Source of the DNA: Jannaschia rubra | GTDB taxonomy: Bacteria; Pseudomonadota; Alphaproteobacteria; Rhodobacterales; Rhodobacteraceae | DNA length: 64,000 bases | Assembly (NCBI RefSeq): GCF_001403735.1 | Contig: NZ_CXPG01000009.1 | Coordinates: forward strand, 1-64,000 | Direction of reading: 5' to 3' | Shown here: piece by piece, positions 40,930-62,348 of the stretch | Numbering within the stretch: the first letter of the stretch is position 1 | Layout: each line of letters starts with the position of its first letter | Translations under genes and position numbers: made by a program | Notes under the pieces: generated by a model | Seen by the model: the letters and a program-made list of their open reading frames with translations, nothing else | Databases searched by the model: none | What the model was told of the DNA's origin: nothing

Positions 40930-41814
40930 TCAGAGGGTCGGGAAGGGGCGCCGGAGAAGGTCCCAGAAGGCTTCGACCTGCGCGCCCGGTCGATCGGACT
41001 TCTGGCGGATCCGGCGAAGCTCCCGCCGGCCGACGGGATGGGAGGGGACGAAGAACTCCACACCCTCGGGTTGGCTCCGCACGGCGTCGAAGGGCAGGAT
41101 GCTGGCGCCCAGGCCACGGCGAACGAAGGACAGGATGGCGGTGGTGTTGCGTGCCTCCAGCGTGCTGGCGGCGAGCAGGGCATGGACGTCGGGGTCGTCG
41201 ATCAGATGGCAGAGCGGATTGGCGATCAGCCGTTCCAGGGCCAGCAGGCCCCAGCCGGATCGTCCGCCCTCGGCCAGATGGGCAGCGTGGACAGGCCCGC
41301 CTTCGGCGCAGACGATCCCGAGGTCGTCGCAGCGGATCAGCTCCCCCTCCGACGGATCATCGGGCCGGGCGGAGATAATGCCTATGTCGGCCTCGTCGCG
41401 CTGCACGCGGCGGCGCACGGCGACGCTGTCGACGTCGCTGATCTCGATGCGGACATCGGAATGGGCGGTCTGGAACGCCTCGATCACCGCCGGCAACAGG
41501 GACACGGTCGCCGAGGGCACCGCGGCGATGCGGACGATGCCCGCAGTGGAGATGGCATGGCGACGGATCGCCTCGGCGCTGCGATCGAAGATGTCGGTGG
41601 CGCGGCGGCTCTCCTCCAGCACCAGCTGGCCCAAGGGGGTCAGGCGGCTTTTGCGATCGGTCTCGAAGAGGGGGGCGCCTATTTCGTCCTCGATCTGGGC
41701 GAGCGTCATCGAGATGGCCGAAGGGGTCCGTCCCAACAGGCGCGCGCCTGCGGCCAAGGTGCCCTGTTCGGCCACGACGCGAAAGACACGGAGCATTTCA
41801 AGCTTGATCGCCAT
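40930..41814 (-). CDS. LysR-type regulator of the ALDH/M19/BCCT cluster
   Basis: This 294-residue LysR regulator has an N-terminal winged helix ([30 protein letters not shown], key residues A-A-x-x-L-x-x-T-x-S-A-I-S near 20-35) and a PBP2-type effector domain from about 90. It is divergent from the aldehyde dehydrogenase at 41904. Two TTCAG/CTGAA inverted repeats lie in the 89-base gap and reach its own start, which fits autoregulation plus effector-dependent activation of the cluster. Confidence 0.9.
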
Positions 41815-41858
41815 TCAGGATAACTGAAGGTTGTTTCAGAACTTGCAGAATGACTGAA
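41814..41858. promoter_or_regulatory. Two LysR-type operator palindromes
   Basis: Two inverted repeats share the same half-sites. TTCAG-GATAA-CTGAA is at 41814-41828, and TTCAG with CTGAA spaced by 14 bases is at 41835-41858. They fill the divergent gap between the LysR gene and the aldehyde dehydrogenase. Paired recognition and activation sites are usual for LysR regulators. Confidence 0.65.
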
Positions 41859-41903
41859 GTGACACACGCCGTCTAGGGTGTCTCTCACACACAGGAGACC
41901 GCC

Positions 41904-43355
41904 ATGACCGAGCGCACCGGAATTTTCATCGACGGCGAATGGAGCGACGGCGTGTCGACTGTCGAGAACCGCAACCCGTCCGATACTTCGGAGCTGATCG
42001 GGCATTACGCGCAGGCGGATGCGTCGCATCTCGATGCGGCACTGGAAGCGGCGCGGCGGGCGCAGCCCGAATGGTGGGCAGCCGGCATCCAGAAGCGGCA
42101 CGACGTTCTCATGTCCATCGGGACCGAACTGATGGCGCGGGCCGAGGAGATCGGCCGCCTGCTGTCGCGTGAGGAAGGCAAGCCTCTGGCCGAGGGTCGG
42201 GGCGAGGTCTATCGTGCAGGGCAGTTCTTCACCTATTTCGCCGCCGAGACGCTGCGCCAGCATGGCGATCTGGCCGAAAGCGTCCGCCCGGGCATCGAGA
42301 TCGACGTCCGGCGCGAGCCGGTGGGCGTGGTCGCCATCATCAGCCCCTGGAACTTTCCCGTGGCCACCCCGGCCTGGAAGATCGCTCCGGCGCTGGCTTT
42401 CGGCAACGCGGTGGTCTGGAAGCCCGCGAACCTGACGCCGGCGAGCGCCGTCGCCCTGACCGAGATCATCGCGCGCCAGGACATCCCGGCGGGTGTCTTC
42501 AACCTGGTGTCCGGCCCCGGCCGCGACGTGGGCCAGCGGCTTGTCGAAAGCCCGGCGGTCGATGCGATCAGCTTCACCGGCTCGGTCCCGGTTGGACGCG
42601 CCATCGCATCGGCGGCGGTGGGCAACATGACGCGCGTGCAGATGGAGATGGGGTCGAAGAACCCGCTCATCGTCATGGACGACGCGGACCTCGACCTGGC
42701 GGTGGCGCATGCCGCCAATTCGGCCTTTGGCGGCACCGGACAGAAATGCACCGCCGCAAGCCGACTGATCGTGCACACGTCGATCCATGACGCTTTCGTG
42801 GACCGGCTGGTCGCGACGGCACGGGCGCTGAAGGTCGGGCATGCGCAGGAGGAGGACACCCAGATCGGCCCGGTGGTGAGCGAGGAGCAGCTGTCGCAGA
42901 ACCTCGACTACATCGAACTGGGCCGGTCGGAGGGCGCGGAGCTTTTGTGCGGCGGCGAGCGGCTGGAGCGCGCGACCAAAGGTTATTTCATGGCCCCGGC
43001 GGTCTTCGCGGGCACCCGAAACGACATGCGGATCAACCGAGAGGAGATGTTCGCCCCCGTCACCTGCGTGCAGAAGGCCGAAAGCTACGACGAGGCACTG
43101 GCCCTGGCCAACGACACCGAGTTCGGGCTGACGGCGGGGATCATGACCCGGTCGCTGGCCCGCGCCAGCCATTTCCGCGCCAACATGCGGGCCGGATGCG
43201 TGATGGTGAACCTGCCCACCGCCGGCACCGACTATCACGTTCCCTTCGGCGGCCGCGGCGCGTCGAGCTATGGCCCGCGCGAGCAGGGCACCTATGCGGC
43301 GGAATTCTATACCACGGTCAAGACGGCCTATGTCGCGGCGGGAGCGCCGGAATGA
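41904..43355 (+). CDS. NAD(P)-dependent aldehyde dehydrogenase (KGSADH-like)
   Basis: This 483-residue ALDH superfamily enzyme has the cofactor motif SPWNFPVATPAWKIAPALA, the general-base Glu in RVQMEMGSKNPLIV, and the catalytic Cys in FGGTGQKCTAASRLIV. The GQxCTAxSR form and the C-terminal NLPTAGTDYHVPFGGRGASS are close to alpha-ketoglutaric semialdehyde dehydrogenases. CAGGAGA precedes ATG 41904. It is the first gene of the cluster under the LysR regulator and overlaps the M19 gene by four bases. The real substrate may be another semialdehyde. Confidence 0.88.
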   Translation: MTERTGIFIDGEWSDGVSTVENRNPSDTSELIGHYAQADASHLDAALEAARRAQPEWWAAGIQKRHDVLMSIGTELMARAEEIGRLLSREEGKPLAEGRGEVYRAGQFFTYFAAETLRQHGDLAESVRPGIEIDVRREPVGVVAIISPWNFPVATPAWKIAPALAFGNAVVWKPANLTPASAVALTEIIARQDIPAGVFNLVSGPGRDVGQRLVESPAVDAISFTGSVPVGRAIASAAVGNMTRVQMEMGSKNPLIVMDDADLDLAVAHAANSAFGGTGQKCTAASRLIVHTSIHDAFVDRLVATARALKVGHAQEEDTQIGPVVSEEQLSQNLDYIELGRSEGAELLCGGERLERATKGYFMAPAVFAGTRNDMRINREEMFAPVTCVQKAESYDEALALANDTEFGLTAGIMTRSLARASHFRANMRAGCVMVNLPTAGTDYHVPFGGRGASSYGPREQGTYAAEFYTTVKTAYVAAGAPE

Positions 43356-44365
43356 GCGTCCTGATCGACGGGCTGCAGTATGCCAACTGGTCCGAAGGGA
43401 TCTTCCGGCAGATGCGCGCGGGAGGCGTCGATGCCGTCCACGTCACGATCGCCTATCACGAGACCTTCCGCGAGACGGTGCTGAACATCGAACGCTGGAA
43501 CCGCTGGTTCGAGGCTCATCCCGACCTCATCTTCCAGGGCCGGACCGGCGCCGATGTGACCCTTGCGCATGAGACGGGCCGCACGGCGATCTTCTTCGGC
43601 TCCCAGAACCCCTCGTGTATCGAGGACGACATCGGGCTGGTCGAGGTGCTTCATACGCTCGGCCTGCGGTTCATGCAGCTCAGCTACAACAACCAGTCGC
43701 TGCTGGCCTCGGGCTGCTACGAGAACGACGACACCGGACTGACGCGCATGGGTCGTGCCGTGGTGGCCGAGATGAACCGCGTGGGGCTCGTGGTGGACAT
43801 GAGCCATTCGGGCGAGCGGTCCACGCGTGAGGCGATCGACCAGTCGACCCGACCCATCGCCATCACCCACGCCAACCCGGCAAGCTGGCACCCCGCCCTG
43901 CGCAACAAGTCCGACGACCTGCTGCGGGCCCTGGGCGAGGGCGGCGGGATGCTGGGGCTGTCGGCCTATCCGCACCACCTGCTGAGCGGCAGCGCCTGCA
44001 CGCTGCAATCCTGGTGCGACATGGCCGCGCGCGCCGTCGATCTGGTCGGGCCGGAGGGCGTGGGCATCGGCACCGACCTTTGCCAGGACCAGCCCGACAG
44101 CATCGTCGACTGGATGCGGACGGGCCGCTGGACCAAGACCGTGGACTACGGCGAGGGGAGCGCGGAGGCGCCCGGATTCCCGCCGATGCCCGACTGGTTC
44201 CACGACAACCGCGATCTGGCCGGCATCCGCGGCGGGCTGCTGGCCGCCGGCCTCGACCGCGCGACGGTCGATGGCGTGATGGGCGGCAACTGGCACGCCT
44301 TTTTCAATCGGAGCTTCGGCGCGCAGAGCGCGTCGCCGGGGATGCAAAGCCGCGCCGCCGAATAG
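43352..44365 (+). CDS. M19 membrane-dipeptidase homologue with altered metal site
   Basis: This 337-residue amidohydrolase-fold protein resembles renal dipeptidase (M19). DMSHSGERS (His152), AITHANP (His173) and GVGIGTDLC (Asp242) match three conserved active-site positions. However, the N-terminal HxD metal pair is absent (the region reads LIDGLQYANWS), and the bridging Glu of the usual EGG segment is replaced (FFGSQNPS). It therefore cannot bind the canonical dinuclear zinc centre in the same way. It has no signal peptide. Its ATG overlaps the aldehyde dehydrogenase stop (ATGA). It may hydrolyse a cyclic or amide substrate, or have a mononuclear site. Confidence 0.8.
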   Translation: MSVLIDGLQYANWSEGIFRQMRAGGVDAVHVTIAYHETFRETVLNIERWNRWFEAHPDLIFQGRTGADVTLAHETGRTAIFFGSQNPSCIEDDIGLVEVLHTLGLRFMQLSYNNQSLLASGCYENDDTGLTRMGRAVVAEMNRVGLVVDMSHSGERSTREAIDQSTRPIAITHANPASWHPALRNKSDDLLRALGEGGGMLGLSAYPHHLLSGSACTLQSWCDMAARAVDLVGPEGVGIGTDLCQDQPDSIVDWMRTGRWTKTVDYGEGSAEAPGFPPMPDWFHDNRDLAGIRGGLLAAGLDRATVDGVMGGNWHAFFNRSFGAQSASPGMQSRAAE

Positions 44366-44399
44366 GACGCGGAACCATCACGTTCAGGGAGGGAACCAG

Positions 44400-45959
44400 A
44401 TGAGCGATACCGACACGGAGACGGACATCCAGTCCGGTCGCATCGACAAGCCGCTGTTCGCGGTCGCGGTCGGGTTCATCCTGCTGTTCTGCGCCTATGC
44501 GCTGTTCGACATCGACGGCCTGTCCGCGCTGGTGGACGCGGGCTTCGCGTTCTCGGCACGGTACTTCGGCCTTTACTGGCAGGTGCTTCTGCTGGCGACG
44601 TTCCTGATCGGCCTCGTGGTCTGCGTCCTGCCGGGGGCGGGGACGATAATGGGAGGCCTCGCGCGGCCGGAGTTCAGGCTGTTCAGCTGGGGGTCGATGA
44701 TCATGTGCACCCTTTTGGCGGGGGGCGGCGTGTTCTGGGCGGCGGGCGAGCCCATAGCGCATTTCCTGTCGGCGCCGCCGATCTTTGCGGACGTCGGCGA
44801 CGACCCGCAGGCCCGCGCGAGTGCTGCGCTGGCGCAGAGCTTCCTGCATTGGGGGTTCCTCGCCTGGGCGATCCTGGGGTCGCTGACGACGGTGATGCTG
44901 ATGCATTACCATTACGACAAGGGCTTGCCGCTTGCGCCGCGCACGCTGCTCTATCCGGTCTTCGGGGACCGGGCCATCCACGGACCCATCGGGTTGATCG
45001 CGGATGCGTCCTGCGTGATCGCGGTCGTGGCGGGGACCGTGGGGCCGATCGGGTTCCTCGGATTGCAGATGTCCTATGGCCTGAACGCGCTGACGGGGGT
45101 GCCCGACACCTTCACCACGCAGGCCATCGCCGTGCTGGCGCTCGTCGGGGTCTATACCGTCTCGGCCATCACGGGGCTGACCCGGGGCATCCAGCTTCTG
45201 TCGCGGATCAACGTGATCCTGGCCTTGGCACTTCTGGCCTTCATGCTGGTTGCGGGGCCTACGACGGGGATCTTCTCGGGCTTCTTCGGGGGGATGAAAG
45301 TGTATCTTGGCAACTTCTTCCAGATGGCGCTTCACCGGGGCGAGGCGGGGGTCTTCGGTGATCCGGGCTGGCTCGGCTGGTGGACGGTGTTCTTCTGGGG
45401 CTGGTTCATGGGGTACGGGCCGCTCATGGCGATCTTCATCGCCCGCGTGAGCCGCGGCCGGTCGATCCGCCAGATCATCGTGATGCTCTCCATCGTGGCC
45501 CCCATCGTCACCAACTTCTGGTTCACGATCATCGGCGGGTCCGGCATCTTCTTCGAGATCGCCCAGCCCGGCGTGATCTCGGGCCCGTTCGAGGGGTTCA
45601 ACCTGCCCGCGGGCCTGCTGGCCATCACCCAGGCGATGCCGCTGGGGCTGATGCTGTCGGTGCTGTTCCTCGTCCTGACTATGTTCTTCGTCGCCACGAC
45701 CAGCGATTCGATGAGCTACGTCATCTCGGCCGCCATGTCCGAGGGAGAGCCCACGGCCGGCCTTCGGGCGTTCTGGGGCCTTGTCATGGGGGTGATGGCG
45801 CTGATCCTGATCTCGACGGGCGCGGGGGGCATCGGCAAGCTGCAGAGCTTCATCGTGGTGACCGCCGTGCCCGTGTCGCTGATCCTGCTCCCGTCGCTGT
45901 GGGATGCCGTCCGCATCACGCTGATGCTGGGTCGCGCAGGCAGGACAGTCCACGCCTGA
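44400..45959 (+). CDS. BCCT-family transporter
   Basis: This 519-residue protein with 12 predicted membrane helices belongs to the betaine/carnitine/choline transporter family. FSWGSMIMCTLLAGGGVFWAAGEP, FLHWGFLAWAILG and WWTVFFWGWFMGYGPLMAIFIARVSRGRSIR match conserved BCCT segments (key residues W, G and R in the last). The N-terminal tail is short, with no long osmosensory C-terminal extension, so a nutritional role is more likely than osmoprotection. GGGAGGGA precedes ATG 44400. Within this cluster it is the obvious importer of the substrate. Confidence 0.9.
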   Translation: MSDTDTETDIQSGRIDKPLFAVAVGFILLFCAYALFDIDGLSALVDAGFAFSARYFGLYWQVLLLATFLIGLVVCVLPGAGTIMGGLARPEFRLFSWGSMIMCTLLAGGGVFWAAGEPIAHFLSAPPIFADVGDDPQARASAALAQSFLHWGFLAWAILGSLTTVMLMHYHYDKGLPLAPRTLLYPVFGDRAIHGPIGLIADASCVIAVVAGTVGPIGFLGLQMSYGLNALTGVPDTFTTQAIAVLALVGVYTVSAITGLTRGIQLLSRINVILALALLAFMLVAGPTTGIFSGFFGGMKVYLGNFFQMALHRGEAGVFGDPGWLGWWTVFFWGWFMGYGPLMAIFIARVSRGRSIRQIIVMLSIVAPIVTNFWFTIIGGSGIFFEIAQPGVISGPFEGFNLPAGLLAITQAMPLGLMLSVLFLVLTMFFVATTSDSMSYVISAAMSEGEPTAGLRAFWGLVMGVMALILISTGAGGIGKLQSFIVVTAVPVSLILLPSLWDAVRITLMLGRAGRTVHA

Positions 45960-46024
45960 CAGGGCGCGTGGCGGACGCAAGGGCCGCCACGGCCGTCGAT
46001 CCGTCACCTTGGGGAGGAAACGTG

Positions 46025-47701
46025 ATGTCCAGAACCGATCTTCATCCGATGCCCGACGTCGCCGCCTTCCGCCGGCCCGCGTCGGAGGTCATGCGTCTGG
46101 CGCGCATGGGGTGCAGCCATCCGACCCGTCTGTCGTTCCTGCGGACCCTGCTGCGACGGATGCGGACCGAAGGGTGGCGCATCGACCGGCCCGTATGGGA
46201 GGTGGACGACCGGGGCGTGGGCCATGCCGTCTACCGCGTGCGGGGCGGGGCGCATGCCTATAGCCTCGTCGCCTTCGCGCATGACCTTCCCGATGAGATG
46301 CGGTCGGATCGGGTGATCGCCACCGCATGGGACGCGACCTTTACCCTGTTCGACGGCGAGCCTTCGCCCGCCGACATCGAGCGTCTGCGCGCCAACGTGC
46401 CCTTGCAGGAAGCGGGCCGGGTCACCACGCGGGAGCTGACGCTGGCGCGCGCGAACCGGTCGGTGCGCCTGGTCCGCCACGTGATCGAGGCGCTGTCCGA
46501 AGGCCGCCAGCCCGACCTGAAGGAAATCGCGGCCGTTGGCTATCTGATGCGGACGACCGCGGTCTACGGGTCGGGCAAGTTCGGCGCCGCCGACCGCGCC
46601 GACATCGCCGATCGCCCCGAACTCGCCGCGCCCTTCCAGGTCGAGATGCTGACTGTCTGGCTGATCCGGGCCTTCACCGTGGACATCGTGGAGCACATGG
46701 CCGCCGTGCGCGGCGGCGTGGGGGCGGTGCGTCTCGACCCCGCGATCAGGCGGACGCTGGGCGTGGGCAATTCGACGGGGCTCGGCATGGCGCCCTTCGT
46801 GGTCCGCCACCCCATCCTTCTCAACAACTGGATGATGGCGCGGGAGGAGGCGTTGGCGCGCGTCCGCCACCAGCCCTCTGCGACGCCCGAAGCCGTGACC
46901 GAACTGCGCCGCGTGCTGGACCTGGCCATCCGGAACGCCGCCGCCTGGACATCCGAACATCCGGTTCAGGTGGCCAAGCTGGGTGACCTTCGGCGCGACC
47001 TGGACCTCGTGTCGGATCAGTTGACGCGATGGAACACCGGGCAATCGCGCCCCTGGGACGCATTGTGGCGATGGGGCGCGGGCACGCTGAGTTGCGAGGG
47101 GCAGGAGGCGCTTCTGTCGCTGATGCTGGAGCCGCACGGCGACCTGGTGGACGATCTGGCCACGACCATGGGCGCGGACGAGGCGGCGGCCTTCCGTCTG
47201 GACGGCGCGATGCGCGTGGGCGACCTGCGCGCGGTGCTGGCGGATCGCTATGGGTGGGCGCTGGCCATCGACTTCACCGCGCCCGAGAACGTGGCGCGGT
47301 TCTGGTACGTCTCGGAGGAGAAGCTGGAGCCCAGGCTGGGCGAGCGCGCAATAGAGGAAGGCGCCGCTCGGGAGCAGCCGCTCTGCATTGCGCGCCTGGC
47401 GAGTGAGTTGGAGGGGACGCTGCGCGACTACCCGGACGATGCGCCGGTCGCCACCGTCCTGCTGGCGCACCCGGAGCATCGGTTCATGGTGCGGCGGGCA
47501 CAAGTCGCGCGCTTCCACCCCTACGCCGAGGTCCGCGACAACCTGATCGCGGCCGACATGCTGCCCATCGACCTGCTGCGCAGCAAGCTCGCGTTCTTCG
47601 GCGCCACCCGGTTCGACCCAAGGTCCGACCGCTGGGTCCGGATCAACCTGTTCCAGGGAGCGCCCTATCCCGACGAGATCGGATCGGAGGGGCCGCGATG
47701 A
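46025..47701 (+). CDS. Conserved-looking protein of unknown function, 558 residues
   Basis: I do not recognise a family. The start may be ATG 46025 or the adjacent GTG 46022; GGGGAGGAAA lies just upstream. The chain is soluble, without signal peptide or membrane helices, and rich in Arg and Trp. Distinctive segments are HPMPDVAAFRRPASEVMRLA near the N-terminus, SLVAFAHDLPDE, TAVYGSGKFGAADRADI, GNSTGLGMAPFVVRHPIL and RINLFQGAPYPDE at the C-terminus. Its stop overlaps the next start by four bases, so it is coupled to the DUF3726 protein. The pattern of invariant-looking Gly/Ser/His-rich loops suggests an enzyme. It is probably a core component of the pathway encoded from 41904. Confidence 0.8.
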   Translation: MSRTDLHPMPDVAAFRRPASEVMRLARMGCSHPTRLSFLRTLLRRMRTEGWRIDRPVWEVDDRGVGHAVYRVRGGAHAYSLVAFAHDLPDEMRSDRVIATAWDATFTLFDGEPSPADIERLRANVPLQEAGRVTTRELTLARANRSVRLVRHVIEALSEGRQPDLKEIAAVGYLMRTTAVYGSGKFGAADRADIADRPELAAPFQVEMLTVWLIRAFTVDIVEHMAAVRGGVGAVRLDPAIRRTLGVGNSTGLGMAPFVVRHPILLNNWMMAREEALARVRHQPSATPEAVTELRRVLDLAIRNAAAWTSEHPVQVAKLGDLRRDLDLVSDQLTRWNTGQSRPWDALWRWGAGTLSCEGQEALLSLMLEPHGDLVDDLATTMGADEAAAFRLDGAMRVGDLRAVLADRYGWALAIDFTAPENVARFWYVSEEKLEPRLGERAIEEGAAREQPLCIARLASELEGTLRDYPDDAPVATVLLAHPEHRFMVRRAQVARFHPYAEVRDNLIAADMLPIDLLRSKLAFFGATRFDPRSDRWVRINLFQGAPYPDEIGSEGPR

Positions 47702-48414
47702 CCGTCGAACCGTTGGACCAGACGCGCGGCGATTCGACGCCCTTCCTCAATGGCGCCCGGACCGCTGCGCTGTCGCGCAACGAAGTGGCCGCGCTCTGCA
47801 TGAAGGCCGCACGCGGCGCGGGCATGTCCTGGGGGCTGGCGGAGGAGGCGGGGTTTGCCGCAGCCTGGCTCGTCCAGCATGGGTTCGACGGGCCGCGGTA
47901 TCTGCACGCCTATCTGGCGGAGGCGCAGGGCCGCGCCTGGTCCGATCTCTGCCCCACGGTCGCGCCGGGCGAATGGCGCGCGCCGGAGGGTCGGACGCTC
48001 TGCCCGGTGTCGCTGGGCGCCACGCTCTGCGATCATGCGACTTTGGCCGAGGGATTGGCTGAAGGCTGCCCGTTGAGGATCGGCCCGGTGGATCACCCGG
48101 TGCTTCTGGTGCCGTTCCTTGCGACGATCGCCGGGGCCGCGGACATCCGGATCGAGCTGGAATGGGCCGATGGGTCGGTCTGCATCGGCGGTGATCCGGG
48201 CGATCTGGCCGGGGCCATGGACGGGCTGGCCGGATCAGCCGCGCTGTCGCTGACTGCGCGGCCCGGCCCCGCGCGCGCGCCGGCGGCTGCCGCATCGCCC
48301 CCGATCGATGCCGACACCATCGCCGCGCTGAACGCATTGGCCATGCGGACGACCGTTCCGCCGTCGGAGGCGTCCCGCGCGGGCGCCGGATCGACGGCAA
48401 GCGACAACGACTGA
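47698..48414 (+). CDS. DUF3726 domain protein
   Basis: This 238-residue protein resembles DUF3726. The typical N-terminal region LSRNEVAALCMKAARGAGMSWGLAEEAGFAA is visible (key residues N-E-V, K-A-A-R-G-A-G and W-G-x-A-E-E-A around residues 27-57). The C-terminal third is Ala/Pro-rich and probably disordered. The function of the family is unknown. ATG 47698 overlaps the stop of the 558-residue protein, implying a stoichiometric pair or complex. Confidence 0.78.
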   Translation: MTVEPLDQTRGDSTPFLNGARTAALSRNEVAALCMKAARGAGMSWGLAEEAGFAAAWLVQHGFDGPRYLHAYLAEAQGRAWSDLCPTVAPGEWRAPEGRTLCPVSLGATLCDHATLAEGLAEGCPLRIGPVDHPVLLVPFLATIAGAADIRIELEWADGSVCIGGDPGDLAGAMDGLAGSAALSLTARPGPARAPAAAASPPIDADTIAALNALAMRTTVPPSEASRAGAGSTASDND

Positions 48415-48432
48415 CCCCGAAAGGAAATGACC

Positions 48433-48792
48433 ATGACCCTTCACCGTCTGAACCCCGGCCCGCGCATGAGCCAGGCCGTCTGCATCGGCGATATCGCCTT
48501 TCTCGCCGGGCAGGTGCCCGACGACCTGACTGCCGATATCGGCGAGCAGACCCGTCAGGTCCTGACCAAGATCGACGCCGTGGTCGAGACGCTGGGCGCC
48601 GCCAAGGGGGACATCGCCTCGGTCCAGGTCTGGCTGAGCGACATGGCCGATTTCCAGGGGATGAACGCGGTCTGGGACGACTGGGTCGACGGCGAGGCGC
48701 CGCCCGCCCGCGCCACCGGCGGCTTGGCCCTCGCCCGCCCCGGCATGAAGGTCGAGATGATCGCCGTCGTGGCGCTTGGCCGCACGAAGTAG
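48433..48792 (+). CDS. RidA/YjgF-family protein
   Basis: This 119-residue protein is of the Rid (enamine/imine deaminase) superfamily. ATG 48433 is chosen over ATG 48427 because AAGGA at 48421 is then correctly spaced. Marks are VCIGDIAFLAGQVPDD, IDAVVETLGAAKGDI and VWLSDMADFQGMNAVWDDW. The Arg that positions the substrate carboxylate in RidA is retained in PPARATGG. It would deaminate a reactive enamine/imine intermediate. As last gene of the cluster, it suggests the pathway produces such an intermediate. Confidence 0.88.
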   Translation: MTLHRLNPGPRMSQAVCIGDIAFLAGQVPDDLTADIGEQTRQVLTKIDAVVETLGAAKGDIASVQVWLSDMADFQGMNAVWDDWVDGEAPPARATGGLALARPGMKVEMIAVVALGRTK

Positions 48793-48829
48793 GGGACGGT
48801 CCGGCGGGGCAGTGGCGCGACGGGTTATC

Positions 48830-49345
48830 CGCGCGCCGCTGTCTTGCGGAACCGTCGTTCAGGTGATGCCCTGCGCCACCTCGGCGGGCGGGATTGACCT
48901 GCGCACTTCGAAAAAGGGCCGAAAAGAACGCCGGGGCGCATTCGGAATGCAGCTGGCACGTCAGCGGCCGGTCGCCGTTGCGCGAAATGGCGTATCTGCG
49001 GAAGTCCGACGGGACGATCACCTCCGCACCATTGGGCAGAACGGCGATCTGGCCTTGGTGCCAGGCCATCTACGCAATCCCGCCGCCCTCCACCTTGTAT
49101 CGGACCGGACCCACGGACCAGCGGCCGGCAAACTTCTGGACTGTGCTGCCGGGCGCTTGCGTGAGGATCTGATGGCCGAAGCACACGCGGACGATCTACG
49201 CCCTCTCCCCGTAGGCCGCGCCCAGGAACTGCTGGAAGGGCGGGAGCCAGACGTGACCTTCGAAGGCCCCGAACCGCGACCCGGTGATGAGCCAACCATC
49301 TGCGGCCGTCACGTTATCGGATGAAGGGCGTTCTTCGGGAACTAG
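48830..49345 (-). pseudogene. Class I glutamine amidotransferase (PuuD-like), decayed
   Basis: One reading frame on the minus strand preserves the family in order: DGWLITGSRFGAFEGHVWLP, then VCFGHQI with the nucleophile Cys, then MAWHQGQIAVLPNGAEVI, then CQLHSECAPAFFSALF with the His and Glu of the triad. The frame is broken by TAG at 49196-49198 and TAG at 49070-49072. The N-terminal about 40 residues are also not recognisable. Stand-alone GATases of this form sit in polyamine clusters and cleave gamma-glutamyl intermediates. It lies downstream of puuB in the same orientation. Confidence 0.8.
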
Positions 49346-49908
49346 ATGGCCGGTTCTTCGCGGACGCCTTCGTGCACGAACCCTGTCACAAAAAGGGTCG
49401 GGATGGCGAAAGAGACGACGGCCGTGATCGGGCCCGGACTTCGGGGCGCGGGATGTCGTCCACGAACGACAGCACGTTTTCACTGGTCGGAGCGTTGGCC
49501 GCACCGCCACGCGCCCGAACGATTTCGCCGTTGGCGGGGGCGTTGATGTACGGCGAGGAATGCAGGCACCGCAGGTGAGGCCGCACCGCTTCCGGAGACA
49601 CCCGCGCTTGCGGTAGATCCTTCGTCCACTCGGAATGGGTCGAGCCCGATTCAGTCGAGGAGGGGGGCATGATCTTGATCGAGGGGACGGCGACGTGGTG
49701 TCACGTCGATCCGCTCGGCAGATGGGCTTTCGGAACCTCGTTGCTGTCGAAGACATCGTAGTCGGTCTTCATGCAGGTTTCCGCCTCGACGTTCGTGATC
49801 GTGTCTTTGGCAACATGGTCGGACCTGCTGTCGATATCGAGGTCACCCTCGGCCATGGAGTTCCGCGAAGGGGCCGATGGCCGCCGCGCCAAGGCACTCG
49901 TTCTTCGG
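49346..49908. other. Degenerate stretch between puuB and the GATase remnant
   Basis: About 560 bases show coding-like base composition on the minus strand, but the frames are repeatedly broken. Short pieces look protein-like, for example HSSPYINAPANGEIVRARGG and ITAVVSFAIPTLFVTGFV, the latter perhaps part of a membrane helix. I cannot assign them to a family. It is probably the remains of another gene of the same catabolic operon. Confidence 0.5.
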
Positions 49909-51222
49909 CTACACGCCCAGACGATCCCGCAGTCCGTACCACCACGATCCGATAACGGAGTAAGGCACGCGCAGGGCCCGGCCTCCGGGGAACGGATACC
50001 AGGGCAACGACGCGAAGACGTCGAAACGGGACAGGTCGCCCGTGATCGCTTCCGACAGGATCCGGCCGAAGGTATGCGATCCGGTGACGCCGTGACCGCT
50101 GTAGCCATGGGCAAAATAGGTGTTCGCGCCGATGCGGCCCATCTGCGGCACCCGGCTGAACGACAGGGCGAAATTGCCGCTCCAGGCATATTCGACCTTG
50201 ACGTGCGCCAGTTGCGGAAAGACCGCGGCGAGGTTCCGGCGCAGCTTGGCCTCGATGTCGCGGGGATCGGCCCCGCCATAGACCGTGCCGCCGCCGAACA
50301 GCAGCCGCTTGTCCGCCGAAAGCCGGTAGTAGTCGAGGATGTAGCGGATATCCTCGATGCAGTCGTCACCGGGGATGAGTGACGCTGCAAGGTCCGGATC
50401 GAGCGGTTCGGTCGCCATGACCTGCGTGGAGACGGGCATGACCCGCGCCGCCAGCTTCGGGACCACCTCCCCCAGATAGGCATTGCCGCAGAGGACGAGC
50501 GTCCTGCACGTCACCTTCCCCTGCGCGGTCGTGACCGTTGGCGACGGGGCTTCCGTATCCACCTTGGTCACCGGCGACATCTCGTAGATCGTGCCGCCGA
50601 GGCTCTCGAACGCCGCCGCTTCGCCCAGAGCGAGGTTCAGCGGATGCATGTGCCCGCCCGTGCGGTCGATCAACCCGCCGGCATAGAGATCGGAGCGGAC
50701 ATGGTCGCGCAACTGCTCGCGGTCCAGCATCTCTTGGTTGTCGATGCCGTAGCTGGCCCAGAGGGCGCGACGCTCCTCCAGTTCGCGCATATGCGCGCCG
50801 GTGAGGCCGACGAAGATGTTGTTGTCCTTGAGGTCGCAGGCGATCCCGTAGGTCGCGACCCGTTCGCGGATGATCTCGCCGCCTTCCTGAACCATTCCGG
50901 CGACGAAGTGCGCCGTGTCCTGTCCATAGCGTTTCCGGATCGTCTGCAGGCTGGCGTTCAGGCCGTTGACGATCTGCCCGCCATTGCGCCCCGACGCCCC
51001 CCAGCCCACGCGCGCCCCTTCGACGATGACGACGCTGTGGCCTTTCTCAGCCAGATGCAGCGCCGTGGACAAGCCGCTGTATCCTGCGCCGACGACGCAG
51101 ATATCGGCCTCTATCTCGCCTTTGAGGCTGGGTCGGTCGGGGGCAGGGTTGGCCGAGGCGGCATAATAGCTGTTCGTGTGCCGCCCGTCGCCCGCATAGG
51201 ACATCTCGCTCCGCGCATTCAT
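49909..51222 (-). CDS. puuB: Gamma-glutamylputrescine oxidase-like FAD oxidoreductase
   Basis: This 437-residue DAO-family flavoprotein resembles PuuB/OrdL. The FAD motif is ADICVVGAGYSGLSTALHLAE (key residues G-A-G-x-S-G), followed by RVGWGASGRNGGQIVNG, the hallmark of the PuuB group. The C-terminal FAD-binding strand includes YFAHGYSGHGVTGSHTFGRI. ATG 51222 follows GGAGA and overlaps the stop of the glutamine-synthetase remnant (ATGA). PuuB oxidises gamma-glutamylated polyamines to the aldehyde. Its upstream synthetase and downstream amidotransferase are decayed, so its present substrate is uncertain. Confidence 0.88.
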   Translation of the reverse strand: MNARSEMSYAGDGRHTNSYYAASANPAPDRPSLKGEIEADICVVGAGYSGLSTALHLAEKGHSVVIVEGARVGWGASGRNGGQIVNGLNASLQTIRKRYGQDTAHFVAGMVQEGGEIIRERVATYGIACDLKDNNIFVGLTGAHMRELEERRALWASYGIDNQEMLDREQLRDHVRSDLYAGGLIDRTGGHMHPLNLALGEAAAFESLGGTIYEMSPVTKVDTEAPSPTVTTAQGKVTCRTLVLCGNAYLGEVVPKLAARVMPVSTQVMATEPLDPDLAASLIPGDDCIEDIRYILDYYRLSADKRLLFGGGTVYGGADPRDIEAKLRRNLAAVFPQLAHVKVEYAWSGNFALSFSRVPQMGRIGANTYFAHGYSGHGVTGSHTFGRILSEAITGDLSRFDVFASLPWYPFPGGRALRVPYSVIGSWWYGLRDRLGV

Positions 51223-51545
51223 CAGACGGTCTCCAGATAGCTGTGATATTCGTACTGGGTGACCTGCCGGTCGAGGCACATCGGTTCCGGGCGCTTGCAA
51301 TGATGACAGATCCTTCCCGCATCGCCAGTCTCGAAGACGAAGGCGCTGGCCTCGATATCCTCGCTCCGGATGTCTGTCACGGCGCGGGACACGGGCGTCC
51401 GCATCGCACCCGCCAGGACCCTTTCGGGATTATTCAGGTCCAGCGGCTTTCCGGGCAGCAGGCCGTTCCGGTCGCAGGTGCAAGCCAGGACATTCGAGAT
51501 ACCCGCCTCTAGCGAAAGCCAGCCAAGGCTATCCATGTCCCTCAT
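51222..51545 (-). pseudogene. Glutamine synthetase-type (PuuA-like) C-terminal remnant
   Basis: The last about 107 residues of a type-I/gamma-glutamylpolyamine synthetase are recognisable. LSLEAGISNVLACTCDRNGL matches the ANPYLxxAAxLAAG region, PGKPLDLNNPE the following loop, and CLDRQVTQYEYHSYLETV the family C-terminus. Everything N-terminal of this, including the ATP and ammonia sites, is missing. The remnant lies directly upstream of puuB with a 4-base overlap, so it marks where the intact gene once led the operon. Confidence 0.72.
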
Positions 51546-51573: not shown

Positions 51574-51592
51574 TTGTGACGTATGATCACAA
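51574..51592. promoter_or_regulatory. Probable GntR operator
   Basis: TTGTGA (51574-51579) and TCACAA (51587-51592) form a perfect inverted repeat with a 7-base spacer. It lies in an AT-rich gap between the divergent puu remnant and the GntR regulator gene. A further TGTGAT half-site lies just upstream at 51562-51567. FCD-type GntR regulators bind palindromes of this size. Confidence 0.65.
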
Positions 51593-51662
51593 TTTGCCTA
51601 GTGTCAACGGCGGCCTTTGGCCTGTGACCCGTGAAGACATCAACGGGAGGCTCGGAACGCAC

Positions 51663-52382
51663 ATGGATGAGCAGGCAGAGATGCCCGATATCGCAGTCCG
51701 ATCGCCTTCGACGGAGCAGGAGGCGGTCTTTCGCAGGCTACGGTCCGCCATCATGACCGGGAACCTCGCGCCGGAGACGACACTGACCATTCGGGGGTTG
51801 GCGGACCTGATGGCGTGCAGTCCGACGCCCGTCCGGGAAGCCGTCCGCAGGCTGAGCACCGAGAGCGCGATCGAAGTGCTGGGAAACCGGCGGATGAGGG
51901 TCCCGGCGATGACCTTGGCCAAGTTCGAGGAGATCTTCAGCCTGCGCGTGACGATCGAGAGCCATGCGGCGGTTCGCGTGCTGCCCTACGTCTCGGACGT
52001 GATCATCGAGGGGCTCGAACGCATCGATACGCGGATGGACGAGGCGCTCGTCACGGACGACCAACTAGGGCTTACAGTCCTCAACCACGACTTCCATCGC
52101 GCTGTCTACATGACCAATCCACATCAGGCGGCAATGCCCATGATCGAGAGCATCTGGCTGCAACTCGGTCCGTTCCAGCGCCAGATCCTGCAGAGCGGAC
52201 TGGAGTTCTACGTCATCGACCGTCACAAGGAGATCCTGCGCGCCCTGCGGGATCGCGACCCCGGCGCACTCGCTGTCGCTATCGAGGCGGACATCCGGGA
52301 CGGCATCTATCGCTCCGGCAGGCAATACCTTCTCGATCGCGCGAAGCTGTCGTCGCCTTCGCAGGTTCCCTACGGACCCTGA
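51663..52382 (+). CDS. GntR-family regulator (FCD type)
   Basis: This 239-residue regulator has an N-terminal winged helix (TEQEAVFRRLRSAIMTGNLA and GLADLMACSPTPVREAVRRL, about 20-75) and an FCD effector domain with metal-type His residues in LNHDFHRAVY and the later DRHKEILRALRDRD. ATG 51663 is preferred over an upstream codon within the operator. It diverges from the puu remnant/puuB side and is followed 74 bases later by puuC, so it probably governs both. Confidence 0.88.
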   Translation: MDEQAEMPDIAVRSPSTEQEAVFRRLRSAIMTGNLAPETTLTIRGLADLMACSPTPVREAVRRLSTESAIEVLGNRRMRVPAMTLAKFEEIFSLRVTIESHAAVRVLPYVSDVIIEGLERIDTRMDEALVTDDQLGLTVLNHDFHRAVYMTNPHQAAMPMIESIWLQLGPFQRQILQSGLEFYVIDRHKEILRALRDRDPGALAVAIEADIRDGIYRSGRQYLLDRAKLSSPSQVPYGP

Positions 52383-52455
52383 CCCGAAACGAATTGGCCC
52401 TGCGTCGCCGCATCGTGATATCTTTATTCAGGATTGTATCAGAAAACGGGGTGGC

Positions 52456-53949
52456 ATGGAGCGGACGTCGGGCGACTGGCAGGATGCCGCGACGGCCATC
52501 ACATTTTCCGGACAGTCGGTGATCGACGGAAAGTCCGTCGACGGCTTGTCCGGCAAGACCTTCGCATCGAAAAGCCCGATCGATGGCCGTCATCTTCCGG
52601 ATGTGGCGCTGTGCGATGCCGGGGATGTGGACCGTGCCGTCGCGAGCGGACGGCGCGCGTTCGAGGCAGGCGTCTGGAGCGGGACGACGCCGGCCGACCG
52701 CAAGCGCGTGATGCGGTGCCTGGCCGACCTGATCCGCACGCAACGCGATGAGGTGGCGCTGCTCGAGACCCTCGATATGGGCAAGCCCATCGGCGACAGC
52801 ACGTCGATCGACGTCCGCGCCGTGGCCAATTGCTTCGACTACTACGGCGCGGCGATCGACAAGATCTACGATGAGATCGCGCCGACCGCGCGCAATGCGA
52901 TCGCCCTCGTCACGCGGGAGCCGCTGGGCGTGGTCGCCGCCGTCGTGCCTTGGAACTTTTCCATGCTGATGGCGACCTGGAAGGTGGCGCCGGCGCTTGC
53001 CGCTGGAAATTCCGTCGTCTTGAAGCCGGCCGAGCAATCGTCGCTGACCGCGATCCGCCTGGTGGAACTCGCGCTGGGGGCGGGGGTGCCGCCGGGGGTC
53101 TTCAATGTCGTGACCGGCACGGGCCCGGACGTCGGGCGCGCGCCCGGGCTTCACATGGACGTCGACGGGATCTTCTTCACTTGCTCGACTCCAGTGGGCC
53201 GCATCTTCATGGAATATTCGGCACGGTCGAACCTCAAGAAGATCGGGCTGGAACTGGGCGGCAAAAGCGCGAACATCATCCTGTCGAGCTATCGCGACAC
53301 GGCGCACGCGGCGCGTACTTCGGCCCATTCGGCATTCTTCAACCAGGGAGAGATGTGCACCTGCCCCAGCCGCCTGATCGTGGAGCGCACCATCCACCAC
53401 GAGGTGGTCGAGACCCTGCTCGAGGTCGCGAGGGACTATGCGCCGGGCGACCCGCTCGACCCTTCCACCTCCATGGGCGCGCTCGTCGATCATCGCCACA
53501 CGAAGCGGGGGATGGACTTCATCCGAACGGCGGAACGCGACGGCGCGACGATCAGGACGGGCGGACGACAGGTCAGGGAGGATACGGGTGGCTGCTATGT
53601 CGAGCCGGTGGTCCTGACCGATGTGACGAACGACATGACCATTGCGCGTGAGGAGGTCTTCGGTCCCGTCCTGTCGGTCATCGCCGTCGACGATATGGAT
53701 AAGGCCGTGCGCGTCGCGAACGACACACCGTTCGGTCTCGCATCCGCCGTCTGGACCGACGATCTGACGACGGCGCACAAGGTCTCCGCGGGGATCCGCG
53801 CCGGGCTCGTGTATGTGAACTGTTATGACTGCGACGATCTGACGGTGCCGTTCGGCGGCTTCAAGCAATCGGGCATCGGGCGCGAAAGGTCGCTTCACGC
53901 CCTCGACAGATACACCGAATTGAAGACGACCTGGATCGCCCTCGGCTGA
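52456..53949 (+). CDS. puuC: Aldehyde dehydrogenase (PuuC-like)
   Basis: This 497-residue ALDH is similar to gamma-glutamyl-gamma-aminobutyraldehyde dehydrogenase. Visible marks are VPWNFSMLMATWKVAPALA (cofactor), ELGGKSANII with the general-base Glu, FFNQGEMCTCPSRLIV with the catalytic Cys, and EEVFGPVLSVI. The usual FTGSTxVG turn reads FFTCSTPVG, and the residue after the catalytic CT is Cys, not Ala; both are unusual. It should oxidise the aldehyde made by PuuB. It lies between the GntR gene and the transaminase remnant. Confidence 0.88.
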   Translation: MERTSGDWQDAATAITFSGQSVIDGKSVDGLSGKTFASKSPIDGRHLPDVALCDAGDVDRAVASGRRAFEAGVWSGTTPADRKRVMRCLADLIRTQRDEVALLETLDMGKPIGDSTSIDVRAVANCFDYYGAAIDKIYDEIAPTARNAIALVTREPLGVVAAVVPWNFSMLMATWKVAPALAAGNSVVLKPAEQSSLTAIRLVELALGAGVPPGVFNVVTGTGPDVGRAPGLHMDVDGIFFTCSTPVGRIFMEYSARSNLKKIGLELGGKSANIILSSYRDTAHAARTSAHSAFFNQGEMCTCPSRLIVERTIHHEVVETLLEVARDYAPGDPLDPSTSMGALVDHRHTKRGMDFIRTAERDGATIRTGGRQVREDTGGCYVEPVVLTDVTNDMTIAREEVFGPVLSVIAVDDMDKAVRVANDTPFGLASAVWTDDLTTAHKVSAGIRAGLVYVNCYDCDDLTVPFGGFKQSGIGRERSLHALDRYTELKTTWIALG

Positions 53950-56898: not shown

Positions 56899-56930
56899 TT
56901 CATAATACATAATTTGAATGTTTGAATGCG
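56895..56930. promoter_or_regulatory. soxS/soxV divergent promoter with SoxR-type repeats
   Basis: The short gap is strikingly AT-rich in a GC-rich genome. It contains TTTGAATG repeated twice in tandem (56913-56928) facing ATTTCAT/ATTCA-like half-sites near 56897. Related half-sites form the palindrome at soxW/soxX. It is the likely SoxR binding region for soxS and soxV. Confidence 0.55.
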
Positions 56931-56950
56931 GCAAGACATGGTTGCGTCCG

Positions 56951-57682
56951 ATGTTCGACATCTCATTCTTCGGGGCCTTTCTGGCAGGACTGCTGTCGTT
57001 CCTGTCGCCCTGCATCCTGCCGATGGTGCCGTTTTATCTCTCCTACCTCGCCGGCGGCTCCGTGCAGGCGCTGGAGGAGGGGGATCTGCCGGCCGGCACG
57101 CGACGCCGGGCGGTGCTTTCGGCGGTCGCCTTCGCCGCCGGGGTCGCCACGATCTTCATGGGGCTGGGAGCGACTGCGACCGCCTTCGGGCAGATTGTCC
57201 GCGACTGGTTCGACGTCCTGCGCTGGATCGCGGCGGCGCTGATCCTGCTTATGGGAGTGCATTTCCTGGGGGTCTTCAAGATCGGATTGCTCTACCGGTC
57301 CTTCGGCCAGAACAGGACGGCCGCGCCGGGCGGCGGGGGCATGATGGCCGGCTACGTCATCGGCCTTGCCTTCGCGTTCGGCTGGACGCCCTGCGTCGGC
57401 CCCGTCCTCGCCGCCATCCTGTTCATGGCGGGGTCGCAGGAGAGCGTGTCGCAAGGCGTGATCCTTCTGCTGATCTACGCCATCGGCATGACGGCACCCT
57501 TCGTTCTCGCCGCTGCCTTCGTCGGGCCGTTCATGCGCTGGATGCGTCGGTTCCGCCGTCACCTGCCAACGATCGAGAAGATTATGGGTGTCTTCCTCAT
57601 CGTCTTCGCGGTGCTGATCGCCACGAACTCGATGAACGTGATCGCGAACTGGATGCTGCAATTCTGGCCGGCAATCGGCTGA
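56951..57682 (+). CDS. soxV: SoxV, CcdA-type electron-transfer membrane protein
   Basis: This 243-residue inner-membrane protein with six helices passes reductant from cytoplasmic thioredoxin to periplasmic SoxW. The two active-site cysteines are in FLSPCILPMVPFYLSYL and FGWTPCVGPVLAAILFMAG. ATG 56951 gives the typical MFDISFFGAF start; ATG 56918 would add 11 residues inside the operator. SoxW begins 19 bases later. Confidence 0.92.
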   Translation: MFDISFFGAFLAGLLSFLSPCILPMVPFYLSYLAGGSVQALEEGDLPAGTRRRAVLSAVAFAAGVATIFMGLGATATAFGQIVRDWFDVLRWIAAALILLMGVHFLGVFKIGLLYRSFGQNRTAAPGGGGMMAGYVIGLAFAFGWTPCVGPVLAAILFMAGSQESVSQGVILLLIYAIGMTAPFVLAAAFVGPFMRWMRRFRRHLPTIEKIMGVFLIVFAVLIATNSMNVIANWMLQFWPAIG

Positions 57683-57701
57683 TACCTTTCGGGAGGATGA
57701 C

Positions 57702-58259
57702 ATGACACGCTTGATGACCACCCTGGCCGCGACCCTGGCTCTGGCCCTGCCCGCGACGGCGGCCGAACTTGGCGATGACGGGCTGCACAAGGCGCCCTGG
57801 ATGGTGGAGACCTTCAAGGACCTGCGGGAGGACCTCGACGAGGCGAATGCCGAGGGGCGCCGCCTCATGGTGATCGTGGAGCAGCGGGGCTGCATCTATT
57901 GCACGCGGATGCACGAGGAGGTCTTCCCCGATCCGGACATCGCCACGATGCTGGGCGAGGATTACTACGTCGTGCAGATCAATATGTTCGGCGACGTCGA
58001 GGTCACCGATTTCGATGGCGAAGCGCTGTCGGAGAAAGAGGCGGTCCGGAAGTGGAGGCTCAACTTCACGCCGACGATGATGTTCTTTCCCGAGGATGTG
58101 CCCGACGGAGTTGACGCCGAGTCCGCCGCGGCGGCGACCGTGCCCGGCGCCTTCGGGATCGAGACCACGCGCAACATGCTCACCTGGGTTCTGGAAAAAG
58201 GATACGACGGAGACGAGCCGTTCCAAGCCTACCATGCCCGCAAGCTCGGCGGCGGCTGA
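57702..58259 (+). CDS. soxW: SoxW, periplasmic thioredoxin
   Basis: This 185-residue thioredoxin-fold protein has a Sec signal ending PATA-AE near residue 20 and a CIYC active site (64-67) in VEQRGCIYCTRMHEEVF. The cis-Pro region is FTPTMMFF. It receives electrons from SoxV and keeps Sox components reduced. GGGAGGATG precedes the ATG. A 96-base gap containing a SoxR-type palindrome follows. Confidence 0.92.
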   Translation: MTRLMTTLAATLALALPATAAELGDDGLHKAPWMVETFKDLREDLDEANAEGRRLMVIVEQRGCIYCTRMHEEVFPDPDIATMLGEDYYVVQINMFGDVEVTDFDGEALSEKEAVRKWRLNFTPTMMFFPEDVPDGVDAESAAAATVPGAFGIETTRNMLTWVLEKGYDGDEPFQAYHARKLGGG

Positions 58260-58273
58260 ATTGGCATTAAAGT

Positions 58274-58289
58274 ATTCACGATTGTGAAT
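58274..58289. promoter_or_regulatory. SoxR operator at the soxX promoter
   Basis: ATTCAC-GATT-GTGAAT has perfect 6-base arms and lies 67 bases before soxX, within the only sizeable gap of the sox structural operon. SoxR of related bacteria is known to bind both the soxS-soxV and soxW-soxX gaps. The arms resemble BigR/SqrR sites. Confidence 0.72.
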
Positions 58290-58355
58290 TGATCCTTGCG
58301 CGATCGTCCCTCCGCGGCATAGCCTCATGACCGGGAGACGAGACTGGGAGGTTTC

Positions 58356-58835
58356 ATGAGACGCTTTGCGTTAGCTTTCGCGACGGCTGTTGCCTGCGCC
58401 ACGATGGGAGCGGCACAGGATGTCGTGGCCCCCGGCGGTGTTGCCGTCGATGAGTACGGGGGCATCGCCACGTCCCTGACCGGCGCCCCCGGGGATCCGG
58501 CGAACGGGCAGGCGCTGATGGACAAGGGGTCTGGCAACTGCATCGCATGCCATGCGGTGACGGAGCTGTCCCATCTGGGCTTTCACGGCACCATCGGCCC
58601 CGTTCTCGACGGCGCTGCCGATCGTTGGACGGAAGCCGATCTTCGCGGAATCGTGGTGAATGCCAAGAACGTCTTCGAGGGGACGATGATGCCGTCCTTC
58701 TACCGGACCACCGGCTTCGTCCGACCCGGAGACGCCTTTACCGGAAATGCCCCCAAAGGCGACGTCCAGCCGCTTCTGACAGCGCAGGAGGTCGAGGATG
58801 TGGTGGCCTACCTCATGACGCTCAAGGAGGGTTGA
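58356..58835 (+). CDS. soxX: SoxX, mono-haem cytochrome c subunit of SoxXA
   Basis: This 159-residue protein has a signal peptide ending GAA-QD (near 21) and one haem c site, CIACH (62-66). A distal Met ligand is plausible in EGTMMPSFYRTTGF. With SoxA it forms the complex that attaches thiosulfate to the SoxY cysteine. GGGAGG precedes the ATG. SoxY starts one base after its stop. Confidence 0.94.
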   Translation: MRRFALAFATAVACATMGAAQDVVAPGGVAVDEYGGIATSLTGAPGDPANGQALMDKGSGNCIACHAVTELSHLGFHGTIGPVLDGAADRWTEADLRGIVVNAKNVFEGTMMPSFYRTTGFVRPGDAFTGNAPKGDVQPLLTAQEVEDVVAYLMTLKEG

Positions 58836-58836
58836 G

Positions 58837-59256
58837 ATGAACTTCACGAGACGCAAGACACTCATGACGGGAGCGACCGCTTTCGCGGCGGCGATGCTGC
58901 CTTTCGGCGCATATGCGGCCCTGTCCGACGACGCCATCGCGGAATTCACCGGGGGCGCCGAGGTCGGGTCCGAGGGGATCACGCTGACCGCCCCGGAAAT
59001 TGCCGAGAACGGCAACACGGTGCCGATCGAGGTCGAGGCTCCGGGCGCTGTGTCGATCATGGTGCTCGCCGCGGGCAATCCGAACCCGGATGTCGGCACG
59101 TTCAACTTCGGCCCGCTGGCGGCACGCCAGTACGCCTCGACGCGGATACGTCTTGCCGGAACGCAGGATGTCATTGCTGTCGCCAAGATGCAGGACGGCA
59201 GCTTCGTGCAGGCATCGACCGAGGTGAAGGTCACCATCGGCGGCTGCGGCGGCTGA
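58837..59256 (+). CDS. soxY: SoxY, sulfur-carrier subunit
   Basis: This 139-residue protein has a twin-Arg signal (FTRRKTLMTGATAFAAAM). Its C-terminus is VTIGGCGG, the flexible arm with Cys137 that covalently carries the sulfur substrate through the cycle. Being folded with SoxZ before export fits Tat transport. SoxZ lies 23 bases downstream. Confidence 0.97.
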   Translation: MNFTRRKTLMTGATAFAAAMLPFGAYAALSDDAIAEFTGGAEVGSEGITLTAPEIAENGNTVPIEVEAPGAVSIMVLAAGNPNPDVGTFNFGPLAARQYASTRIRLAGTQDVIAVAKMQDGSFVQASTEVKVTIGGCGG

Positions 59257-59279
59257 GATCGACGACAAGGAGAACCAAG

Positions 59280-59609: not shown

Positions 59610-59677
59610 CTGGGGTCGAACGGTGGCGCGGATCCGGGGAGGAGGCCGCGCCGCAATCCCGGGGAGGGGAAGGGAGC

Positions 59678-60538: not shown

Positions 60539-60546
60539 CCTTTCGA

Positions 60547-60583
60547 GCCCGTCTGCCGGAGATGGCAGACGGGCCTTTCTTTC
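60547..60583 (+). terminator. Intrinsic terminator between soxA and soxB
   Basis: A perfect 11-base stem, GCCCGTCTGCC (60547-60557) against GGCAGACGGGC (60564-60574) with a 6-base loop, is followed directly by CTTTCTTTCTT. This is a textbook Rho-independent terminator placed inside the sox operon. Confidence 0.88.
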
Positions 60584-60625
60584 TTCGAATACATGCGGTT
60601 TCTCGAATACGACCGGAGCGGCGAC

Positions 60626-62320: not shown

Positions 62321-62348
62321 CCCGCCTGGAGCCGAAGGAGAACCACAG

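Follow-up and report, generated by a model that had tools for sequence, protein, structure and literature searches.

The question addressed here is what compound is taken up and broken down by a seven-gene cluster of Jannaschia rubra, which lies in a stretch of 64,000 nucleotides (contig NZ_CXPG01000009.1, positions 1 to 64,000) referred to below as the window. The first-pass annotation of this DNA had proposed that a betaine-like or cyclic amino compound was imported and broken down stepwise to a semialdehyde, which fits the content of the cluster. On balance, the cluster is probably a substrate-induced operon whose products take up an N-methylpyridinium betaine, most likely homarine (N-methylpicolinate), and open its ring. 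The make-up of the cluster, a conserved operator, the fold of the DUF3726 protein, the alternation of two exit enzymes (RidA and Ldh) and the Mgd-like neighbors of some sister clusters were computed, and from here on the substrate, every reaction and the step order are inferred. The features are:

40930-41814, minus strand: LysR-type regulator, divergent (PF00126, E 3.6e-15; PF03466, E 4.1e-24)
41824-41839, no strand: LysR operator CTGAA-N6-TTCAG, with at most one mismatch in 46 of 64 LysR-ALDH gaps (0.26 such regions expected from shuffles; the sequences are related and so not independent)
41904-43355, plus strand: aldehyde dehydrogenase (ALDH; PF00171, E 3.3e-164), inferred to act at a semialdehyde step
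43352-44365, plus strand: M19-like hydrolase fold without the canonical metal ligands (PF01244, E 1.7e-66)
44400-45959, plus strand: BCCT betaine-type transporter (PF02028, E 1e-142)
46025-47701, plus strand: U558 (558 amino acids), candidate ring-opening subunit, no Pfam or NCBIfam family at E 0.001
47698-48414, plus strand: DUF3726 protein, paired with U558 and of Ldh2 fold, lacking an internal part (PF12525, E 3.5e-22)
48427-48792, plus strand: RidA, predicted Rid2-like imine deaminase (PF01042, E 2e-25)

All seven genes were where the first-pass annotation had placed them, as were the two ATGA overlaps, between ALDH and M19 (43352-43355) and between U558 and DUF3726 (47698-47701). Position 41814, which it took as the start of the cluster, is the start codon of the LysR gene, which extends leftward to 40930.

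This gene set is not local to the window but widely shared among bacteria. Relatives of U558 were found in 165 of 292 genomes of the window's order, in 39 of 289 genomes drawn from its class, and in 168 plasmid records, including those of Phaeobacter, Ruegeria TM1040, Mesorhizobium, Sinorhizobium, Aminobacter, Pseudomonas, and Vibrio. Named genome contigs held at least 588 stretches matching the pattern and at least 564 coding for a U558 relative, the best 80 of which were retained. Within the window's genus the distribution is patchy, with U558 in 4 listed genomes (its own included) and not in 6 others listed. Because the gene order is retained across many named genera, the arrangement is beyond chance.

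A total of 149 U558 loci were tabulated, and the 121 with at least 4.8 kb of flanking sequence on each side were used for counts. A neighbor had to lie within 7 kb with more than 35% of its length aligned, at an identity of at least 35% for Rid and Ldh proteins, 30% for betaine-type binding proteins, 50% for ALDH, and 55% for BCCT. The sample is biased: loci L001-L080 are the best matches to the window, and most others were hand-picked from lists. M19 was near U558 in 109 loci, DUF3726 in 102 (BLAST overlooks at least two that are annotated in the records, L154 and L158), ALDH in 72, a Rid protein in 38, and Ldh in 37; BCCT was found in 42 loci and a binding protein of a betaine-type ATP-binding cassette (ABC) system in 16 others, so that the assigned transporters are mostly of betaine type. 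The co-occurrence of U558 with DUF3726, M19, and BCCT, which had been suggested as a check, was thus positive. In Mesorhizobium and in two loci that are 93% identical (L029 and L042), U558 and DUF3726 form a single open frame; this fusion in two lineages, with M19 nearby in nearly all loci, indicates one core module.

U558 had no credible match among PDB sequences (best E 0.95), and no PDB match was found for its predicted structure, which was modeled confidently (pLDDT 85). Among the 48 positions kept in at least 98.5% of 150 aligned rows, Arg, Gly, Asn, and Ser account for 27, and metal could be bound at just five (D103, H262, E361, E369, and E435). The first-pass annotation had counted both U558 and DUF3726 as proteins of unknown function. 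That description suits U558 but not DUF3726, which has the Ldh2 fold: 164-189 of its 238 residues align, from near the first residue to near the last, with chains of 313-361 residues from the delta1-piperideine-2-carboxylate reductase/Ldh2 family, and an alignment spanning nearly whole chains means that an internal part is missing. Run against the PDB, the sequence profile of DUF3726 picked up no Ldh2 chain up to E 10, and Pfam gave only DUF3726 at E 0.001. A literature search found no paper on DUF3726 or on these gene combinations among those it covered.

The M19 protein belongs to its family as had been proposed, but it lacks the usual dipeptidase metal ligands, which we take to be an HxD motif, a bridging Glu, two His, and an Asp. 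Compared with structure 3id7, Q85 occupies the position of the canonical Glu, and the HxD site, placed by eye, reads L8-Q9-Y10, so the protein was rejected as a canonical dipeptidase; H152, H173, and D242 are kept in at least 97% of 127 rows. Catabolism of dipeptides or cyclic dipeptides around this protein would agree with the strong Pfam match, but given the missing ligands, the betaine-type transporter, and a nearest solved relative (2i5g, E 3.1e-57) that is named only 'amidohydrolase', it is very improbable.

The ALDH scored best against the NCBIfam model for 2,5-dioxovalerate dehydrogenase (511 bits, below the 750 cut-off), and C282 and E248, presumably the catalytic positions, are conserved in at least 95% of 93 rows. 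The BCCT domain spans residues 19-505 of 519.

The last gene of the window cluster and its counterpart in sister clusters carry much of the argument. R95 of RidA, which we take to be the active-site arginine, is conserved in at least 95% of 49 rows. The best PDB matches of RidA were PSPTO_0102 (E 1.1e-22) and PA5083 (E 1.6e-20), which are described in an excerpt of PMC5619798 as Rid2 proteins with imine deaminase activity. Judged by this nearness and the conserved arginine, the window RidA has the marks of Rid2. The nearest solved relative of Ldh is delta1-piperideine-2-carboxylate reductase (1wtj/2cwf/2cwh, E 4.8e-53). Among the 72 loci with ALDH, both RidA and Ldh were present in 3, RidA only in 34, Ldh only in 20, and neither in 15 (odds ratio 0.066, p 9e-6, ignoring kinship); for all 121 loci the corresponding numbers were 3, 35, 34, and 49 (p 2e-4, again ignoring kinship). 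On a U558 tree of 73 rows the RidA and Ldh traits change 13 times each, no independent pair changes in the same direction, and the two types, which mostly differ in transporter as well, interleave. That RidA and Ldh rarely occur together suggests that a single N-methyl enamine or imine can leave by either of two routes, being hydrolyzed in the window type and reduced in the other, and a compound open to either reaction would account for the swap.

Regulation also appears to link the two types. The palindrome at 41824-41839, CTGAAGGTTGTTTCAG, is perfect, and it is found again in the LysR-ALDH gaps of 63 other loci; over the 64 gaps, the window included, 13 copies were perfect, 33 had one mismatch, 12 two, 2 three, and 4 four. 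Two operator palindromes had been reported in the window: the first is this perfect and conserved one, and the second is less clear, consisting only of a further CTGAA half-site 14 bases downstream. The LysR orthologue, where in reach, is 54-78% identical in BCCT-type loci. Operators with at most one mismatch occur in RidA-type loci and in Ldh-type loci such as L111, L113, L115, L151, and L152; other Ldh-type loci have two mismatches (for example L123, L127, and L158) or four (L148 and L153). The count left out Ldh loci in which an ABC system separates LysR from ALDH. An operator shared by RidA-type and testable Ldh-type loci argues for one inducer.

Some sister clusters point to N-methyl chemistry. 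Next to the cluster lie genes named sarcosine oxidase alpha and gamma in Ruegeria TM1040 and Phaeobacter inhibens, and genes for all four sarcosine oxidase-type subunits, a betaine ABC system, and purU in Shinella. A tree was inferred for 26 alpha subunits, eight of which, with a GmaS gene 1.7-16.6 kb away, were taken by context as N-methylglutamate dehydrogenase (Mgd). Seven of these eight fell into one clade of 18 rows, and the eighth, the furthest from GmaS, elsewhere. The same clade holds the U558-adjacent alpha subunits of TM1040 and Phaeobacter (L151 and L152) and that of L077, with Shinella (L158) at its base. Since seven further alpha subunits of unassigned context also share the clade, the term Mgd-like is used by association only. 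GmaS, counted at E 1e-130, was found in 17 of 29 genomes with U558 (one of the 17 below the family cut-off) and in 7 of 32 without (p 0.004, one genome per genus, kinship uncorrected).

Taken as a betaine pathway, the cluster could work as follows. BCCT would import the zwitterion, U558 and DUF3726 acting as one enzyme would open the aromatic ring, and the ALDH would oxidize the resulting semialdehyde. The M19-like protein would hydrolyze an intermediate, perhaps an N-formyl amide, and RidA would hydrolyze the remaining N-methyl enamine or imine to a 2-oxo acid and methylamine; in sister clusters Ldh would instead reduce the imine, and the N-methyl amino acid so formed would pass to an N-methylglutamate-dehydrogenase-like enzyme. 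For homarine, oxidative C5-C6 opening would give an N-formyl-N-methyl enamide, M19 would be the deformylase, and the branch point would be N-methyl-2-iminoglutarate, from which RidA would yield 2-oxoglutarate and methylamine and Ldh would yield N-methylglutamate.

Homarine is favored because of the reported role of Mgd in its catabolism, its marine abundance, and the clusters in two very small genomes. Mgd is reported to participate in homarine catabolism in an excerpt of PMC13390433, and according to an excerpt of PMC8269262 homarine accounted for up to 3% of the particulate carbon in samples from the North Pacific and reached 400 mM in Synechococcus. Two alphaproteobacterial genomes of about 1.4 Mb (L190 and L191), perhaps of SAR11 judging by their size, have clusters of Ldh, a betaine ABC system, ALDH, M19, U558, and DUF3726, and an abundant marine solute would lead one to expect such near-complete clusters; in a 1.2-Mb genome (L192), M19, U558, and DUF3726 occur without ALDH or Ldh nearby. 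The panel of betaines, ectoines, and cyclic dipeptides suggested earlier keeps its betaines and narrows to those with an N-methyl group, among which homarine, a pyridinium betaine, is the most likely.

Several results weigh against the homarine reading. The sign test on independent RidA/Ldh pairs gave a median of 0.125, short of 0.05, with about 4 of 12 pairs informative. At the thresholds used, 63 of the 121 loci have neither BCCT nor a betaine-type binding protein, the Mesorhizobium locus has a branched-chain-amino-acid-type ABC system, and the ABC system of the S. meliloti locus is of polyamine type. In Ldh loci that carry a betaine ABC system (e.g. L024, L049, L059, L069, L074, and L076) there is no direct LysR-ALDH gap, and the LysR is only 34-38% identical to that of the window. 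Of the U558-near alpha subunits, that of L043 groups within the sarcosine-type clade, and two from small genomes (L192 and L193) sit on long branches outside both clades with weak support. No oxygenase or flavin family signature was found for U558 and DUF3726 in the Pfam and NCBIfam searches. R. pomeroyi, which may or may not carry U558, grew more poorly on homarine than on trigonelline according to an excerpt of PMC8269262. In the window genome the alpha subunit, beside glyA-, sdaA-, and creatinase-like genes (by eye), is outside the gmaS-linked clade, no GmaS was found above the cut-off, only a sarcosine-type soxA is present, and an Ldh2 homologue was not found in a search that lacked a positive control and so shows little. 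These absences suggest that the window genome is probably unable to use the N-methylglutamate route, and the organism may excrete methylamine.

Some of these points would suit a cluster acting on another N-methylated ring betaine (trigonelline, stachydrine, or hydroxyproline betaine), with only the Ldh type being a homarine operon. The types differ in exit enzyme and mostly in transporter, the LysR of the ABC/Ldh loci is distant from that of the window, several genomes have two U558 copies, and Rieske genes lie near some copies. But both types interleave on the U558 tree, RidA-type loci share with the testable Ldh-type loci the operator that suggests one inducer, and no oxygenase or Rieske protein lies within the window cluster, so we regard this explanation as improbable.

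The chief rival, which overlaps the homarine reading in substrate class and is unlikely though slightly less so than a different betaine, is a hydrolytic, redox-neutral route resembling that of aminomuconate. U558/DUF3726, or the M19-like protein, would hydrate homarine to N-methyl-2-aminomuconate semialdehyde, the ALDH would convert this to N-methyl-2-aminomuconate, and RidA would free methylamine. The bacterial 2-aminomuconate pathway uses the dehydrogenase AmnC/NbaE and the RidA-family deaminase AmnD/NbaF, and the corresponding branch of aminophenol and tryptophan degradation has an ALDH acting on an amino-semialdehyde followed by a RidA-family deaminase, as in the window cluster; the latter, however, has no ring-cleaving dioxygenase, and its BCCT and U558/DUF3726 have no counterpart there. 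Such a route predicts RidA as the exit and agrees with the lack of an oxygenase or flavin match, with the few metal-capable residues among the conserved U558 positions (five of 48), and with the good scores of the ALDH on the HpaE and hydroxymuconic-semialdehyde models (415 and 341 bits, both below cut-off). It would, however, keep a C6 skeleton and alone give no N-methylglutamate, which the Mgd-like neighbors imply, and on general chemistry the opening of an aromatic pyridinium by water only is uphill.

The homarine reading also has to be set against known systems. The trigonelline (tgn) pathway involves an ALDH and methylamine release. It has the TgnA/TgnB ring-opening oxygenase, whereas at E 0.001 no oxygenase or flavin reductase family was hit by any of the seven window proteins, which were all that the search covered. 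It too breaks down an N-methylpyridine carboxylate, and an excerpt of PMC8269262 gives ring opening as its first step, deems TgnA/B unlikely to act on homarine, and, as of 2021, knew no characterized homarine degradation pathway. The window pathway had been called undescribed; this is doubtful, since a conserved pathway by which environmental bacteria catabolize homarine was published in 2026 (Ferrer-Gonzalez et al., Nat Microbiol 11:1531, cited as ref 55 in the excerpt of PMC13390433). Mgd, which PMC13390433 reports to take part in homarine catabolism, has Mgd-like counterparts beside some sister U558 clusters, whereas the window type lacks Ldh, carries RidA and BCCT, and comes from a genome in which no Mgd-like enzyme was found. 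The pathway itself is therefore not claimed as new; the RidA variant, the DUF3726 fold, the fold status of U558, and the RidA/Ldh exchange were computed here. The published operon is reportedly named homABCDER, and its five enzymes and regulator would fit ALDH, M19, U558, DUF3726, Ldh, and LysR.

Other U558 loci differ in setting. In 10 loci of a divergent set (mostly 50-54% identical, among L131-L150), U558 lies between TamA- and TruA-looking genes (by eye), and six of these loci lack M19. In L136, L137, L138, L141, L142, L146, and L150 a U558 copy without nearby M19 occupies this fixed chromosomal spot (L136 shows the tamA side only), with a small DUF3726-like gene, seen by eye, in 6 of the 7. 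Distant U558 copies (31-35% identity) in Sinorhizobium meliloti pSymB (L157) and Alloyangia pacifica (L156) have a small partner gene where DUF3726 sits, along with genes for an M19 protein and IclR, one or two Rid proteins, and a polyamine-type ABC system. An aminotransferase gene and a succinate-semialdehyde-dehydrogenase-like ALDH gene accompany them, on the opposite strand in Alloyangia; these units have a similar core and probably a different substrate. Near U558 in L125, L130, and L153 are an MttB-like methyltransferase and a GcvT-fused FAD oxidoreductase, hinting at betaine demethylation.

Elsewhere in the window, a remnant resembling class I glutamine amidotransferase (about 48820-49650, minus strand, by eye) looks decayed, with in-frame stops. 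It adjoins a DAO-family oxidoreductase (49909-51300), which, with a GntR/FCD regulator and second aldehyde dehydrogenase at 51576-53949, is perhaps a separate amine-oxidation unit. At 56918-63605 (plus strand) are sox-cluster-like genes by eye, with CcdA-, SoxA-, SoxB-, and SoxC-like frames, putatively for sulfur oxidation. In another stretch of the window genome (L222, C16:12000-31000), creatinase-, symporter-, and GlxA-type-regulator-like genes (by eye) precede soxBDAG, followed by glyA- and sdaA-like genes, which is likely a creatine/sarcosine unit.

We suggest, tentatively, that U558/DUF3726 could be a new ring-opening enzyme class for N-heterocycles, in which a large subunit of unseen fold is joined to an Ldh2 protein minus an internal part. 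This module would be reused for various N-methylpyridinium and related betaines across Proteobacteria, from SAR11-size genomes to Sinorhizobium pSymB, with a swappable RidA/Ldh exit setting methylamine or N-methyl amino acid as the product. If the cluster is the homarine sink, homarine turnover would be readable from genomes, and there would be a ring-opening pair to study, for the large half of which no solved relative was found; RidA-type bacteria should then release methylamine, and Ldh/Mgd-type bacteria should keep the nitrogen as an N-methyl amino acid.

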